NCBI GenBank assembly: GCA_944363705.1
Contig: CALVUY010000006.1
Coordinates: 1-37,107 of the forward strand
From: an uncultured Bacilli bacterium
Lineage (GTDB): Bacteria > Bacillota_I > Bacilli_A > RF39 > UBA660
Length of the DNA: 37,107 nt
Reading direction: 5' to 3'
A program made the translations under genes and the position numbers. Below the pieces are notes generated by a model. That model saw only the letters and a program-made list of their open reading frames with translations, had not been told where the DNA came from and made no database searches. Positions 1 to 33,116 of this stretch are shown here, piece by piece (position 1 is the stretch's first letter; every line of letters begins with the position of its first letter).

Positions 1-422
1 GATCCTACCACTCTATGACACGGTATAATTATGGAAATAGGATTATGACTAACTGCACCTCCTACCGCTTGACTAGATATCTTTTTAAGACCTTTTTGTT
101 TTGCAATAGTATCTGCAATATCTTTATAAGTAATAACTTCTCCATAAGGTATTTCACAAAGTATCTTCCAAACACTTTTTCTAAAGTCACTACCTAAAGG
201 ATTTAAATCAAGTTCATTTATACTAGGTTTTTCTCCTTTAAAATATCTATCTAACCACTCTTTAGTCTTAATTAATATTTCTTTCTCTTCTTCTTTTATT
301 TCATCTTTTAAGCAAGAAAAATAATATTTCTGTCCTTCTATCCATAAACCTATTAATTTATTGTTTTTGGAAGCGAGTAAAATATCACCAATTGGAGATT
401 TATAATGAGTAGTATAAATCAC
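1..422 (-). CDS. ogt: Methylated-DNA--protein-cysteine methyltransferase, 3' end cut by window edge
   Basis: Suicide DNA-repair protein that moves the alkyl group from O6-alkylguanine to its own cysteine. The frame starts at a GTG (420-422) and reads IYTTHYKSPIGDILLA, then an N-terminal domain. It ends at the window edge in IPCHRVVG, the family's active-site PCHRV motif, with the acceptor Cys at about residue 135. Some 140 codons are present, so roughly 15-35 C-terminal residues are missing. The GTG is chosen because an AAAGGAG lies about 8 nt upstream, inside the end of the ABC-F gene, whose stop is only 5 nt away. The two genes are therefore probably co-transcribed and translationally coupled. 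Confidence 0.9.
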   Translation of the reverse strand, partial: MIYTTHYKSPIGDILLASKNNKLIGLWIEGQKYYFSCLKDEIKEEEKEILIKTKEWLDRYFKGEKPSINELDLNPLGSDFRKSVWKILCEIPYGEVITYKDIADTIAKQKGLKKISSQAVGGAVSHNPISIIIPCHRVVG

Positions 423-12110: not shown

Positions 12111-13036
<926 letters not shown>

Positions 13037-17360: not shown

Positions 17361-17801
17361 ATGAATAAAATAGAATGCACAAAGCCAAATATTTCTGAAT
17401 ATGGATTTATAAGACTTTACAGTGCTACTGTAATCTTGCAAGGTAAAAATCCTATATTTGAAAATCATGAATTAGAAAAAGATTTATTTAAGTATTATGA
17501 TAAAGAAGAATACAATTTCTTTTTTGAAGATATTGTAAAAAGAGAAGATAAAATATTTAAAGATAGTAGTTATTTAGATTTAAATGCTGGTTTAGGGCAA
17601 GGATATGCTTTAGGATTATTATTACCACTACAAGGATCTAAAAATTTAAAATCTATTATTAATCTCTCTAGAGAAAATGCTAGTGAAATACTTTCATCAT
17701 TTAATACAGAACAGGTTGTAGCAATGGGAAATCTATGTAATGAAATGGATGAAGAAAAGAACAAAAGGAATAATAGTACATTTACTAAAAAATTAAGTTA
17801 A
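17361..17801 (+). CDS. Hypothetical protein, 146 aa
   Basis: No family recognised. Soluble and acidic in the middle (KYYDKEEYNFFFEDIVKREDK), with a Gly-rich stretch LDLNAGLGQGYALGLLLPLQGS at about residues 73-94 and a Lys-rich tail. AAGGAG lies a few bases before the ATG, so translation is likely. The first antisense promoter of the toxin-antitoxin repeats begins 6 nt after its stop, with no terminator between; read-through could raise the antisense RNA. Confidence 0.55.
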   Translation: MNKIECTKPNISEYGFIRLYSATVILQGKNPIFENHELEKDLFKYYDKEEYNFFFEDIVKREDKIFKDSSYLDLNAGLGQGYALGLLLPLQGSKNLKSIINLSRENASEILSSFNTEQVVAMGNLCNEMDEEKNKRNNSTFTKKLS

Positions 17802-17806
17802 AATTT

Positions 17807-17835
17807 TTGACAAAAATTAATATTTATGATACTAT
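17807..17835 (+). promoter_or_regulatory. Antitoxin RNA promoter, copy A
   Basis: TTGACA, 17-bp spacer, TGA-TACTAT (extended -10). Confidence 0.8.
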
Positions 17836-17841
17836 GAATAT

Positions 17842-17951
17842 GTAAAAGAAATTTACATAAAATTAAAAATGAGGAACATTTAGGTTGCAAGTGAATGTCA
17901 CCTCATATATTCTATGTGTGGCACTCTAATGCAGAGTGTCTATTTTATTTT
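17842..17951 (+). ncRNA. Antisense antitoxin RNA, copy A
   Basis: About 110 nt. Predicted hairpins: TATGTAAA/TTTACATA at the 5' end, GAGGAACATT/AATGTCACCTC (17871-17904), and the terminator GCACTC...GAGTGTC (17921-17940) with TATTTTATTTT. Its 3' end covers the stop codon of the facing peptide gene. The second hairpin, read on the minus strand, is followed by ATTTTTAATTTT and could end the peptide mRNA, so the two RNAs would overlap by some 80-90 nt. The layout matches TxpA/RatA and BsrG/SR4 of Bacillus. The antitoxin role is inferred from layout. Confidence 0.7.
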
Positions 17952-18035
17952 GAAGGTTAGAACTAAGAAAGAAAGACTCAATAAAATTAAAGGAATAAGC
18001 TTTAGTACTTTTATAATAAAAGTCTTTGTCTTCAT
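17940..18035 (-). CDS. Type I toxin-like hydrophobic peptide, copy A (31 aa)
   Basis: Starts MKTKTFIIKVLKLIP, continues with a hydrophobic helix rich in Leu, Ile, Val and Phe (about residues 13-28), and ends TFKIK. It is one membrane-spanning segment with basic ends, the form of membrane-damaging type I toxins. GGAGG (18043-18047) stands 7 nt before the ATG and can pair with CCTCC (18062-18066 region) around CCTAT/ATAGG, which would hide the ribosome-binding site as in known type I toxin mRNAs. The stop lies in the terminator of the opposing RNA. Copy C differs at four or so residues. Confidence 0.7.
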   Translation of the reverse strand: MKTKTFIIKVLKLIPLILLSLSFLVLTFKIK

Positions 18036-18042
18036 ACCTTTT

Positions 18043-18066
18043 CCTCCTTTCCTATAGAATAGGAGG
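18043..18066 (-). promoter_or_regulatory. Shine-Dalgarno-masking hairpin, toxin A mRNA
   Basis: CCTCC and GGAGG form the outer pair and CCTAT-TCT-ATAGG the inner pair. The same sequence occurs at 19346-19369 and 20930-20953. Confidence 0.65.
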
Positions 18067-18094
18067 CGACACCCACATAAATGTTCCTATAAAT

Positions 18095-18123
18095 ATAGTA
18101 TCATATTAATTTTTATATAACAA
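18095..18123 (-). promoter_or_regulatory. Toxin mRNA promoter, copy A
   Basis: TTGTTA (18118-18123), 17-bp spacer, TGA-TACTAT (18095-18100). The 5' UTR is about 50 nt and begins with an AGGAACA...TGTCGCCT hairpin. Confidence 0.75.
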
Positions 18124-18168
18124 GGAAAGATGTAATAAATTAGTTACGAGTTTTCGTAAATAATACCT

Positions 18169-19032
18169 TTAATTATTACTTACTATTTTACATAACTTTT
18201 TTTGATAATTACCTAAACTTTCGTCATCACTAACCATTGAATTGGTACTATTATCTCTAGCATCATTAACTTTTTCATCAAAGTAATAATCAGCTATATT
18301 ATATGGTGTTGATAATATTTTTTCTGTTTCTTCTTTTTGTTTAAACATAGATATTTTTTCTCTTATATATCTGATTTTATCTTGAGCTATTGCCATTTTA
18401 TAAGTATCTATAATATATTTATAATATTTTAAATCATAGGCATAATCCTTTAACATTTTAATAGCACTTATAGTAAGTTCTAAATCAGTTATCTCACTCC
18501 ATTTAGTTTGAACATCATAATTAGATGTACAAGGTTGTTGAACATTACTAATACCAGCATATACAATATCTTTATCACGAGAAAATTCTAAAGCATTCCA
18601 AATAGGTGGAATATCTTTATGAAATATATTCTCATTTCTGTCATAGAAATAACTTCCCCATTTTTTACTTTTTTCATCTAAAACTGCTAAATTACCATTT
18701 CTAAATCCATTTATATTTTTCCATGGTTTATTAATCATTGGTATTTCAACTAATTCTTTAGTTTTGATATCAATAATATAATGCTTATTATTATGCATTA
18801 TAACGTATGCTAAAGAGTCTTGAAATGGTGTTGCATATTTAAAAGTATTTTTAGAGAATAAAATATTACCATCTAAATCAGTATATAAATAACTATTTTC
18901 ATTAGATACTCCTATTTTATGCACTTGATATAAAACTACTCCTTCTTCCATCCCAATTAAACTTAGTTCAATAGGTAAATCAAAACCTATTTTTTTAATT
19001 TCTTCCCTCATAATGGATTTTACTACTGTCAT
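18169..19032 (-). CDS. WG-repeat-like hypothetical protein, 287 aa
   Basis: Soluble protein whose first ~170 residues look like degenerate WG beta-repeats (LYTDLDGNILFS, then FQDSLAYVIMHNNKHYIIDIKTKEL, then FRNGNLAVLDEKSKKWGSYFYDRNE). The C-terminal third is helical and charged. Function unknown. GGGAGGGTG precedes the ATG. It lies between repeat copies A and B: the palindrome of copy A is about 10 nt past its stop, and its promoter region is inside the sequence shared by copies B and C. Confidence 0.55.
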   Translation of the reverse strand: MTVVKSIMREEIKKIGFDLPIELSLIGMEEGVVLYQVHKIGVSNENSYLYTDLDGNILFSKNTFKYATPFQDSLAYVIMHNNKHYIIDIKTKELVEIPMINKPWKNINGFRNGNLAVLDEKSKKWGSYFYDRNENIFHKDIPPIWNALEFSRDKDIVYAGISNVQQPCTSNYDVQTKWSEITDLELTISAIKMLKDYAYDLKYYKYIIDTYKMAIAQDKIRYIREKISMFKQKEETEKILSTPYNIADYYFDEKVNDARDNSTNSMVSDDESLGNYQKKLCKIVSNN

Positions 19033-19109
19033 AATAACACCCTCCCATAATTTTATTATATAGTAATTATTATTTTAAGACTAGAAAAAAATAAAGTTAA
19101 TTTAAAATT

Positions 19110-19138
19110 TTGACAAAAGTTAATATTTATGATACCAT
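19110..19138 (+). promoter_or_regulatory. Antitoxin RNA promoter, copy B
   Basis: TTGACA, 17-bp spacer, TGA-TACCAT. Confidence 0.7.
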
Positions 19139-19144
19139 GAATAT

Positions 19145-19255
19145 GTCAAAGAAATTTGCATAAAATTAAAAATGAGGAACATTTATTTTGACACTTGAAT
19201 GTCACCTCATAAATAATATGAACGACACTCTTATGCGGAGTGTCTTATATTTTTA
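19145..19255 (+). ncRNA. Antisense antitoxin RNA, copy B
   Basis: About 110 nt. GAGGAACATT/AATGTCACCTC (19174-19208) and the terminator GACACTC-N7-GAGTGTC (19224-19244) followed by TTATATTTTTA. The loops differ from those of A and C, so cross-neutralisation between B and the others may be poor. Confidence 0.65.
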
Positions 19256-19337
19256 TAGCCACAATCAATAAAGTAAGACTTATAACAACCAAAGCGACAG
19301 ACTTTAAAAGCTTTAATATAAAAGTTTTCATCTTCAC
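19245..19337 (-). CDS. Type I toxin-like hydrophobic peptide, copy B (30 aa)
   Basis: Diverged homologue of copies A and C, reading MKMKTFILKLLKSVA, then a Val/Leu/Ile-rich helix, ending VAIKI. The start is a GTG (19335-19337), 8 nt after GGAGG (19346-19350) and aligned with the ATG of the other copies; an in-frame ATG follows two codons later. Sequence change with retained hydrophobic and Lys pattern suggests coding selection. The masking hairpin and promoter are conserved. Confidence 0.65.
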   Translation of the reverse strand: MKMKTFILKLLKSVALVVISLTLLIVAIKI

Positions 19338-19397
19338 TTTTATGTCCTCCTTTCCTATAGAATAGGAGGCGACACCCACATAAATGTTCCTACAAAT

Positions 19398-19426
19398 ATA
19401 GTATCATATTAATATCTACACAACAA
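19398..19426 (-). promoter_or_regulatory. Toxin mRNA promoter, copy B
   Basis: TTGTTG (19421-19426), 17-bp spacer, TGA-TACTAT (19398-19403). Confidence 0.7.
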
Positions 19427-19466
19427 GAAAAATATGTAATAAATTAGTTACGAATTTTCGTAAATA

Positions 19467-20603
19467 TTATATGCTAATAGATTTTATACCTTTCATCTCT
19501 ATTATTTTTTTATTTACCTTTTGATTAGCAGTTAAACAGTCATAAAAAACTGCATCTTTTTCATTTTCAAAATAATCTCTACTTTCTCTTATATCATCTC
19601 TAGACATATTATAAACTGCTTTAGATAGAGCTATTAGTGCTTGTTCAGTATTAGCATTCTCTACTAAATTAGGTATTCTTTCTCCAGATAAAATTAAAAT
19701 TTCATAATTAGCAGTCAAAATCTCTTCCATTAATAACTCTTTAAATCTTGTATCACTAGCTTCAAGTTTTTGATAATCTTCAAATAATCTAGATAATAAT
19801 TTATCACGCATTTCTTCATCTAAATATTTAGGATTAGAAACTCTAGTATTTCCTTCTTCTAAAACACCTTTATCTAACATATGAGCTCTTCTAACTTGCA
19901 AATTAATATTAAATAATTCTTGCTCATCATCTAAAAATAACTCTTCTACATAATCACCTTTACCCATCTCCCAATTTTCTTCAAAATCTTCAATAGGTGT
20001 TCTTTGTTCTTTATACTTTTCTCTTTCATGCTTTAAAATTGTTAAAAGTGGTAAATCATCTTTTGTTACATCATTAAAAATTATTCCTCGTCTTTTTGCA
20101 GATTCTACTAATAATTCCAAATCTTGTTCTGTTAAATTATAATATTTAGTAGAAAATCCACAACATACACATTTTAAATTATTATCTACTAATACAAGTT
20201 GATGTTCACAAAACCTTTTATATCCACTATCGTCTCTTATATCAAAAGTTATTTTTTCAAATAGTATATCACGTATTCTTCTTTCCTTCTCATCTATTAA
20301 ATCATTTATATCGACATATTCTTTTAAGTCAGAAAAGGCATTATAAAGTTTATATATTATGTTTTGAATTTCATAAGGATTTTTTCCTTTGCTATTTTTA
20401 TCTAACTCTAATAATTCTACTAAATATAATTTATCACGTAAACTTAGTTTTGAATCATGAACTTCTTTATCTAATAACTCTACTTTTTCTTTTTTTAAAT
20501 TCTCTATATCTTTTTTTAATTTAAAATATTCTTTTCTTAATCCTTCAAACGTATCTTTATAATAATCAGAATCGTTTATTACAAAGTCATCTAATGTTTT
20601 CAT
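19467..20603 (-). CDS. Hypothetical coiled-coil protein, 378 aa
   Basis: No family recognised. Residues 12-50 form a Lys/Glu/Leu coiled coil. A possible zinc knuckle FCEH...LKCVCCGF lies near residues 131-150 (Cys, His, two Cys). The remainder is helical and strongly acidic. No membrane segment. GGGAGG lies about 10 nt before the ATG. The protein is unrelated to the one encoded at 18169, although both sit between the same repeats. Confidence 0.55.
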   Translation of the reverse strand: MKTLDDFVINDSDYYKDTFEGLRKEYFKLKKDIENLKKEKVELLDKEVHDSKLSLRDKLYLVELLELDKNSKGKNPYEIQNIIYKLYNAFSDLKEYVDINDLIDEKERRIRDILFEKITFDIRDDSGYKRFCEHQLVLVDNNLKCVCCGFSTKYYNLTEQDLELLVESAKRRGIIFNDVTKDDLPLLTILKHEREKYKEQRTPIEDFEENWEMGKGDYVEELFLDDEQELFNINLQVRRAHMLDKGVLEEGNTRVSNPKYLDEEMRDKLLSRLFEDYQKLEASDTRFKELLMEEILTANYEILILSGERIPNLVENANTEQALIALSKAVYNMSRDDIRESRDYFENEKDAVFYDCLTANQKVNKKIIEMKGIKSISI

Positions 20604-20684
20604 AAATCTTAAACCTCCCTATGTCCTTATTATATAATAATTATTATCTTAAGACTAGAAAAAGCAATAAGTTAATTTAAATTT

Positions 20685-20713
20685 TTGACAAAAATTAATA
20701 TTTATGATACTAT
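20685..20713 (+). promoter_or_regulatory. Antitoxin RNA promoter, copy C
   Basis: TTGACA, 17-bp spacer, TGA-TACTAT. Confidence 0.8.
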
Positions 20714-20719
20714 GAATAT

Positions 20720-20838
20720 GTAAAAGAAATTTACATAAAATAAAATGAGGAACATTTATTTTTGCACGTGAATGTCCCTCCAATGTTTTAATTGGTTAAA
20801 GCACTCTCAATGCTATTGATGAGTGTCTATTTTATTTT
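20720..20838 (+). ncRNA. Antisense antitoxin RNA, copy C
   Basis: About 118 nt. GAGGAACATT/AATGTCCCTC (20747-20780). The terminator is longer than in A and B: GCACTC-TCAA...TTGA-GAGTGTC (20801-20827), then TATTTTATTTT. Confidence 0.7.
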
Positions 20839-20922
20839 GAAGGTTAGAACTAAGAAAGCAAGACTAAATAAAATAACAGGTATGAGTTTTAACACTTTTA
20901 TGATAAAAGTCTTTGTCTTCAT
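20827..20922 (-). CDS. Type I toxin-like hydrophobic peptide, copy C (31 aa)
   Basis: MKTKTFIIKVLKLIPV start, hydrophobic helix, TFKIK end; near-identical to copy A, with Val, Phe and Ala where A has Leu, Leu and Ser. GGAGG at 20930-20934 precedes the ATG, with the CCTCC partner at 20949-20953. The stop overlaps the opposing terminator. Confidence 0.7.
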   Translation of the reverse strand: MKTKTFIIKVLKLIPVILFSLAFLVLTFKIK

Positions 20923-20981
20923 GCCTTTTCCTCCTTTCCTATAGAATAGGAGGCGACACCCACATAAATGTTCCTACAAAT

Positions 20982-21010
20982 ATAGTATCACATTAATTTC
21001 TTCATAACAA
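20982..21010 (-). promoter_or_regulatory. Toxin mRNA promoter, copy C
   Basis: TTGTTA (21005-21010), 17-bp spacer, TGA-TACTAT (20982-20987). Confidence 0.75.
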
Positions 21011-21050
21011 GAAAAAGATGTAATAAATTAGTTACGAGTTTTCGTAAATA

Positions 21051-32378: not shown

Positions 32379-32462
32379 ACATAAAAATTAAGTTAGGCTT
32401 GTTCTAGCTTTTTTTGTCATAAATGTAAGTTATTTCATACTTTATATTAGGTGGTGATGATA

Positions 32463-33116
<654 letters not shown>

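Follow-up and report, generated by a model that had tools for sequence, protein, structure and literature searches.

An apparently undescribed multicopy family of putative type I toxin-antitoxin loci with predicted mRNA leader-tail pairing in uncultured Bacilli

The contig CALVUY010000006.1 (assembly GCA_944363705.1) belongs to an uncultured Bacilli bacterium of the GTDB lineage Bacillota_I; Bacilli_A; RF39; UBA660. It was analysed over positions 1 to 37,107, and this whole stretch of 37,107 nucleotides (nt) is referred to as the window. In each of three consecutive intergenic gaps of the window, a gene for a small peptide faces a convergent gene for an antisense RNA. These loci are probably type I toxin-antitoxin units and members of a multicopy family on the chromosome that appears to be undescribed. 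In this family, pairing between the two ends of the toxin mRNA (the clamp) would ease translation and the antisense RNA would compete for this pairing. The parts of the unit, their conservation, the covariation of their paired arms and the selection acting on the peptide are evident in the sequences of the family.

On the minus strand, each copy comprises a TTGTT(A/G)-17-TACTAT promoter, a leader with an anti-Shine-Dalgarno (anti-SD) element, a GGAGG Shine-Dalgarno (SD) sequence, a hydrophobic open reading frame (ORF) and a 3' region. A TTGACA-17-TAC(T/C)AT promoter on the plus strand precedes a predicted convergent RNA of about 110-125 nt, which ends in the stop-codon hairpin. Alignment of the three loci gives a mean column identity of 88%. 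All three copies share the SD-masking stretch GTCGCCTCCTATTCTATAGGAAAGGAGG without a single difference, and 100 shuffled versions of the window contain no match to it. With up to three mismatches allowed, the antisense promoter block is found three times (twice exactly, and with two mismatches in copy 2) and not at all in the shuffles. TG precedes the -10 element of this promoter in every copy (TACTAT in copies 1 and 3, TACCAT in copy 2). A single promoter match proves little, because the window-wide promoter scan gave a total of 36 versus 31.7 (standard deviation 6.0) in shuffles, i.e. no excess. Terminator-like sites number 5 versus 0.7 in shuffles; the same scan picked up two antisense terminators (17920-17940 and 19224-19244), and the one of copy 3, with its longer loop, escaped it.

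The ORFs, the alignment, the promoter blocks and the shuffle controls bear out the initial annotation, which had described a three-copy family in consecutive gaps with hydrophobic minus-strand peptides of 30-31 residues (ORFs are found in all three copies), a masked GGAGG kept in all copies and an antisense RNA with its own TTGACA-17-TACTAT-type promoter. The length of about 110 nt assigned to this RNA holds for copies 1 and 2, copy 3 being predicted at about 125 nt. The list of parts is extended here by an upstream palindrome, the 5'-3' pairing of the mRNA and a 5' hairpin of the antisense RNA.

The copy number of three applies to the window and not to the genome. In the 1.46 Mb genome, a covariance model built from 64 aligned mRNAs found 17 places, 16 strong and one weak; the model had been trained on 14 of the 17, and the number is a lower bound because scoring covered 150 of 2392 first-look candidates. 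When copy 1 was used as a DNA query against the genome, 26 matches were obtained, many of them limited to one end of the copy, and different hydrophobic peptides were read out in the middle of the match places. The sample assembled from this genome and its relatives comprises 106 loci in which an SD precedes a hydrophobic ORF, and it is dominated by one genus. Both ends were recognised in 103 of them, removal of seven with badly placed ends left 96, and 87 were non-redundant; the 64 aligned mRNAs were picked from these 87 with close repeats left out.

DNA matches occur in 78 of the 148 genomes searched. These are the genome of the window, 31 others of its genus (three genus members are without a match), 33 in other genera of the family, about ten of which are weak and may be chance, and 13 of the same class outside the family, which are weak (E 1.8e-5 to 8.7e-4) and may also be chance. 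The records of the 65 stretches that contain the antisense promoter are entitled Candidatus Onthousia, uncultured Bacilli, uncultured Tenericutes or uncultured bacterium, and Onthousia, which is probably the genus of the window, belongs to the Bacilli according to the NCBI taxonomy. In one relative (G018:C9:23836-24596) two units directly adjoin each other, whereas the window copies are separated by genes.

In the window, Rfam at the gathering threshold yields only a tRNA, and between 17750 and 21100 no Rfam covariance model matches at E values up to 1. RF39, the GTDB order of the window's group, was not found together with toxin-antitoxin in the open-licence PMC literature, and neither RF39 nor Onthousia was among the matches listed in a broader search of that literature. 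The negative Rfam, Pfam and NCBIfam scans fit the earlier suggestion that the family may be undescribed, as does the literature search. Type I systems as such have already been reported from Firmicutes and Tenericutes (PMC12390103). The family appears to be undescribed, large and located in uncultured gut bacteria, the label 'gut' being based on the species names of Onthousia and on a paper on the chicken gut.

The central new finding on the family is a clamp between the first ~30 nt of the toxin mRNA and its last 45 nt, a pairing supported by covariation. For the 87 non-redundant loci, the mean energy of the leader/tail duplex is -34.3 kcal/mol, compared with -13.6 kcal/mol for shuffled tails. 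Cognate pairs reach -33.7, -33.8 and -39.6 kcal/mol in three peptide groups, versus -15.6 to -23.0 kcal/mol for cross-group pairs. RNAalifold, run on the 64 mRNAs without a given structure, found the closing helix. In the same alignment, 91.7% of the clamp cells are paired, with a covariation score of 0.407 and double changes in 20 of 29 pairs (8 of 11 in the inner helix). Sliding the partners gives at most 45.2% paired cells and a covariation of at most 0.149; shuffling the 3' letters gives 82.7% and 0.239. Two alternative pairings are possible among four elements, namely the leader (GUGAGUGUC in type 1), the tail and the two arms of the hairpin that follows the stop codon; strong covariation is seen for either pairing, and the elements change together between peptide types.

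The 5' end of the antisense RNA copies the mRNA leader, with 2169 of 2455 aligned letters identical. The 286 differences include 179 transitions, of which 154 keep a G-U pair in the leader-tail duplex of the mRNA and 25 break the pair. Counted as distinct contexts, which are not fully independent among related loci, there are 57 keeping versus 19 breaking transitions (p=1.5e-5) and 83 transversions. Per locus, keeping transitions outnumber breaking ones in 73 of 87 cases, equal them in 13 and fall below them in one. A DNA inverted repeat would show no such direction, which points to RNA pairing, and a simple AT/GC bias would not raise both classes.

Sufficient downstream sequence for scans of the antisense side was available for 85 of the 87 loci. 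A promoter of the form TTGnnn-16..18-TAnnnT with TG before the -10 element is present in 82 of these 85 peptide-found loci, versus 1.0 of 85 in shuffles. A looser pattern matches 83 of 85 loci yet also 28.1 of 85 shuffles, and the stricter pattern was therefore relied on. We infer that the antisense promoter is a separate one, and it looks constitutive. The antisense leader often contains a short hairpin outside the mRNA (mean stem 5.9 bp versus 3.8 bp in shuffles, 55 distinct leaders); the stem has only 4 bp in 18 of the 55 leaders and is missing in three. In copy 2 of the window, this hairpin shows a compensatory change from A-U to C-G relative to copies 1 and 3. In folds of the whole predicted antisense RNAs, it is unformed in copy 1 and short in copies 2 and 3, which makes its role uncertain.

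SD accessibility and the transcripts themselves are predictions. In folds of the 87 loci, opening the SD costs 5.49 kcal/mol in the full-length mRNA, 8.64 kcal/mol without the last 50 nt, 8.43 kcal/mol without the 3' untranslated region and 8.17 kcal/mol for the leader plus 33 nt. With shuffled tails the cost is 8.31 kcal/mol, and with tails from other peptide groups 7.85 kcal/mol; the own tail thus lowers the predicted cost by about 3 kcal/mol relative to shuffled tails. Tail removal raises the cost by more than 0.5 kcal/mol in 75 of 87 loci and lowers it in two, with 10 loci staying within 0.5 kcal/mol. With the tail, without it and as leader plus 33 nt, the SD costs 5.4, 6.7 and 6.0 kcal/mol in copy 2 and 4.6, 6.5 and 5.6 kcal/mol in copy 3. 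The SD has a competitor for the anti-SD in a GAGG-like element of the tail, and a copy of the anti-SD is present in the antisense RNA. Together with the SD costs, these two elements suggest that the finished mRNA would be more translatable and that the antisense RNA would restore masking.

According to the proposed mechanism, the minus-strand mRNA would encode a Lys-flanked membrane peptide, and its finished 3' tail would pair with the leader. By capturing the anti-SD, the tail is predicted to make the SD easier to open and to favour translation. The antisense RNA, being fully complementary to the tail and carrying the leader copy in its 5' part, would displace the leader from the tail, which would restore SD masking and presumably leave an RNA duplex for RNase III. 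The gene for this enzyme is present in the genome.

Several observations weigh against this mechanism or against the strength of its evidence. The clamp structure was drawn on the alignment on which it was counted, and the outermost pairs, though not the inner helix, are favoured by the selection of loci through end motifs of the GGRA and TTCC types. For the inner helix, RNAalifold chose another pairing, which covaries about as well. Non-cognate tails of the same group pair nearly as well as cognate ones (-29.1, -25.6 and -39.4 kcal/mol in groups T, D and E), so that the specificity of the clamp lies between types and not between loci, and the cognate tail ranks first in just 12 of 87 rows and 15 of 87 columns. 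All 107 transversions among the 286 differences between leader and antisense RNA break pairs. Deletion of the first 12 nt, which form the outer helix of the clamp, changes little (5.86 kcal/mol, median 0.00, p=0.33), and the effect on the SD is therefore ascribed to the inner helix. Even with the clamp, the SD still costs about 5.5 kcal/mol to open, and these energies are thermodynamic only. The mean unpaired probability of the SD is 0.14-0.18 in full-length folds, a predicted masked state, and nearly equal in trimmed mRNAs; in three loci the full-length form has the more accessible SD by a margin above 0.2, and in four the trimmed form does. Copy 1 of the window is without a clamp effect (6.8 kcal/mol with the tail, 6.5 without it and 5.2 for the leader plus 33 nt).

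Under a different reading of the same pairing, the clamp would be a lock of the hok/AapA type, i.e. a stable, silent transcript that requires processing, with the antisense RNA removing the processed form. This would agree with the long 5'-3' pairing and the mostly masked SD predicted for 85 of 87 full-length mRNAs, and AapA1 is known to be silenced by such pairing and activated by 3' trimming (PMC6733600). Activation of this kind was considered for the present family and rejected, since removal of the last 50 nt raised the predicted SD opening cost; as masking would tighten in 75 of 87 loci, trimming would not activate them. The antisense RNA, moreover, covers the 3' end of the mRNA. A lock of this type is consequently regarded as rather unlikely. 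It is also unlikely, and slightly more so, that the antisense RNA acts as in RatA/txpA, by an RNase III-cut 3' duplex alone, the clamp serving mRNA stability without a regulatory role. The convergent 3' overlap does resemble txpA/RatA (PMC6562991), and the RNase III gene would provide the nuclease. Such a mode of action leaves unexplained why the antisense RNA copies the leader with mostly wobble-keeping transitions, and why the SD opening cost drops in a tail-specific manner.

Transcription of the toxin is probably conditional, as suggested by a palindrome in the genus of the window and by LexA boxes in a few relatives. The palindrome TTACG-N6-CGTAA lies ~63 bp before the predicted toxin start in the window copies. 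The genome contains 13 such sites and none for the reversed control; 35 genomes of the genus contain 229 sites versus 21 for the control, and five of the 35 have no site. One site of the window's genome lies inside recF and recurs in relatives, so the enrichment includes this coding match. The palindrome is also found upstream of a Bro-N gene (L016:1475-2439) and an ORF6N gene (L039:336-1346), which encode phage antirepressor-like domains, and before the promoter of an 85-residue HTH_3 (XRE-type) gene (read in four loci and assigned by Pfam). This HTH_3 gene has strong DNA matches in 20 of the 35 genus genomes, and its product may be regarded as a candidate palindrome-binding regulator. The association with the Bro-N gene had raised the suspicion that the palindrome TTACGAAAAYTCGTAA is a LexA box, which was rejected because the lexA promoter of the same genome carries CGAAC-N4-GTTTA instead.

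LexA-like pattern sites occur in 19 of 21 lexA upstream stretches, and 24 of the 27 sites in these stretches were used to build a matrix, which was applied to the 86 of 87 loci with enough upstream sequence. Eight of the 86 toxin promoters score at least 8, none of them a window locus; seven of the eight exceed all of 100 shuffles and one exceeds 98. The best sites, AGAACAATTGTTTG (17.5) and AAAACATTTGTTTG (16.0), lie between -35 and -10. Control of the toxin by LexA is thus predicted in a few relatives, one of which (G019) belongs to the window's own genus. The palindrome is present in 33 of the 86 toxin promoters and in none of the eight LexA-scoring ones. A third motif, TTGTTCGATTGTTT or TGTTCGCTTGTTT, is located at about -50 to -35 before toxin starts in L078, L086, L080, L104, L127, L147, L150 and many other loci and differs from both the LexA box and the palindrome. 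It is tentatively proposed that the clamp represents the ON state and the antisense RNA an OFF signal acting by leader mimicry, and that this module may have come under the control of two or more regulators (LexA in a few relatives and, in the window's genus, a protein that binds the palindrome) as its peptide diversified.

The peptides differ in sequence between loci and retain their overall design; types include MKTKTFIIKVLKLIP..., MNKKDFLIFSL..., MSKKDFLVSTL... and MRKTEKFLCYI.... They appear to be single-helix, Lys-flanked membrane peptides. Scans of seven types gave nothing over the cut-off in Pfam or NCBIfam, which have little power to detect peptides of 30 residues. Within each of five groups matched for type and length, the ratio of non-synonymous to synonymous substitution rates (dN/dS) is 0.17-0.33, indicating purifying selection, as calculated from non-independent pairs that are 70-98.5% identical. 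When loci were located by the antisense promoter alone, 70 sites were obtained, of which 13 were too short to judge, and 52 of the 57 complete ones contain an intact hydrophobic ORF. Both results agree with the conservation of the hydrophobic frame in homologues that the initial annotation demanded. In the five broken loci the ORF is lost, truncated (two loci, apparently one event in related genomes) or frameshifted, or the SD region is changed; the antisense promoter is kept in all five. Because this search was anchored on the antisense side, the count of 52 of 57 does not indicate how often that side is lost. In L090, L105 and L108, the toxin is lost or truncated and the antisense promoter and leader are kept.

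Toxicity of the peptides is inferred, which leaves room for the view that they are small membrane regulators, for example stress-related or partners of membrane proteins, that are controlled by antisense RNA and are not toxins. LexA boxes in a few members would suit such a role, and 16 strong copies in 1.46 Mb are many for harmful genes. Against this, all five broken loci are damaged on the toxin side, as expected for a harmful peptide, an argument that is weak in view of the antisense-side anchoring. A regulatory role in place of toxicity is considered improbable. That the units are miniature mobile elements, with the similar ends as terminal inverted repeats around an incidental ORF, is hardly credible: many copies do share similar ends around different middles and adjoin each other in one relative, but the peptide is under purifying selection, the end similarity bears the asymmetry of RNA pairing, an exact pattern search of viral contigs and a blastn search of phage and plasmid records with copy 1 gave no match, and the four neighbouring ORFs contain no Pfam transposase domain. 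The asymmetry and the absence of such a domain likewise make the transposon relic mentioned in the initial annotation unlikely.

The coordinates of the three units are compiled in the table. Two genes without a Pfam match separate the copies (18169-19032 and 19467-20603). The stretches 19053-19111 and 20627-20685 are 81% alike, which suggests segmental duplication of the unit together with its flank. Elsewhere in the window, 12287-13036 and 32451-33116 encode two collagen-like Gly-X-Thr repeat proteins, which presumably resemble spore or cell-surface filaments.

Table. Features of the three putative toxin-antitoxin units in the window and of the candidate regulator gene in related loci.
Feature	Position	Strand	Basis
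Copy 1 peptide ORF, 31 aa, ATG	17940..18035	-	ORF list and family conservation
Copy 1 predicted toxin mRNA, 5' end to 3' U-tract	17863..18088	-	covariance model, full length
Copy 1 toxin promoter TTGTTA-17-TACTAT, TG before -10	18095..18123	-	sequence reading
Copy 1 palindrome TTACGAAAACTCGTAA, centre ~63 bp before predicted toxin start	18144..18159	.	
Copy 1 clamp leader arm incl. anti-SD CCUCC	18062..18088	-	
Copy 1 SD GGAGG	18043..18047	-	
Copy 1 hairpin after stop codon (mRNA arms b, a'); plus strand = antisense terminator	17920..17940	.	
Copy 1 clamp tail arm incl. GAGG competing for anti-SD	17872..17904	-	
Copy 1 antisense promoter TTGACA-17-TACTAT	17807..17835	+	
Copy 1 predicted antisense RNA, ~110 nt; possible 5' hairpin 17840-17858	17842..17951	+	
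Copy 2 peptide ORF, GTG, 30 aa (or ATG at 19331, 28 aa)	19245..19337	-	
Copy 2 predicted toxin mRNA	19166..19391	-	covariance model
Copy 2 palindrome TTACGAAAATTCGTAA	19448..19463	.	
Copy 2 toxin promoter TTGTTG-17-TACTAT	19398..19426	-	sequence reading
Copy 2 clamp tail arm	19175..19208	-	
Copy 2 antisense promoter TTGACA-17-TACCAT	19110..19138	+	
Copy 2 predicted antisense RNA; 5' hairpin sequence 19143-19161	19145..19254	+	
Copy 3 peptide ORF, 31 aa, ATG	20827..20922	-	
Copy 3 predicted toxin mRNA	20739..20975	-	covariance model
Copy 3 palindrome TTACGAAAACTCGTAA	21032..21047	.	
Copy 3 toxin promoter TTGTTA-17-TACTAT	20982..21010	-	sequence reading
Copy 3 clamp tail arm	20748..20780	-	
Copy 3 antisense promoter TTGACA-17-TACTAT	20685..20713	+	
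Copy 3 predicted antisense RNA, ~125 nt	20720..20846	+	
HTH_3 gene	whole in L178, L180, L182, L184; cut by contig end in L033/L176		

Known type I systems share single features with this family. The fst/RNAII system (par of pAD1) consists of two convergent short transcripts that overlap at a hairpin, an arrangement also seen here. It differs in that the repeats of the present family are inverted in the DNA, so that the two RNAs share their 5' sequence and are not complementary there, and the Pfam scan, with its low power for short peptides, gave no match to Fst. A LexA box in the toxin promoter is shared with tisB/istR of E. coli by a few members only, whereas the window copies carry another palindrome and no LexA box; the peptides of ~30 residues are similar in size to the membrane peptide TisB of 29 residues. 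Unlike in tisB/istR, the antisense RNA overlaps the 3' end of the mRNA. Such an overlap at the 3' ends, combined with an mRNA for a small membrane peptide, is shared with bsrG/SR4 of Bacillus subtilis, where binding of SR4 at the bsrG 3' end tightens SD masking from 4 to 8 bp (PMC6562991). In contrast to bsrG/SR4, the present peptides have no match to a Pfam toxin family, the 5' end of the antisense RNA copies the leader, a covariation-supported clamp extends across several peptide types, and the family is multicopy on chromosomal contigs, while bsrG resides on a prophage. Long-distance 5'-3' pairing with metastable alternative pairings links the family to aapA/IsoA of Helicobacter and to hok/Sok, and aapA likewise occurs in several chromosomal copies (PMC6733600). 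In both of these systems, the antisense RNA is placed differently from the 3' overlap found here, and in AapA1 pairing silences and 3' trimming activates, whereas the present tail is predicted to ease SD opening.

The family looks like a new variation on bacterial toxin-antitoxin control, with a mechanism that is predicted from folding. If correct, this would bring a further type I toxin-antitoxin family, multicopy and from an uncultured lineage of the Bacilli, and its more than 100 natural sequences would allow an RNA switch to be read by covariation. End-to-end pairing of an mRNA would then be used to switch translation on and not off. Judging by the LexA boxes of a few members, membrane peptides under SOS control seem to have arisen in the Bacilli, too.

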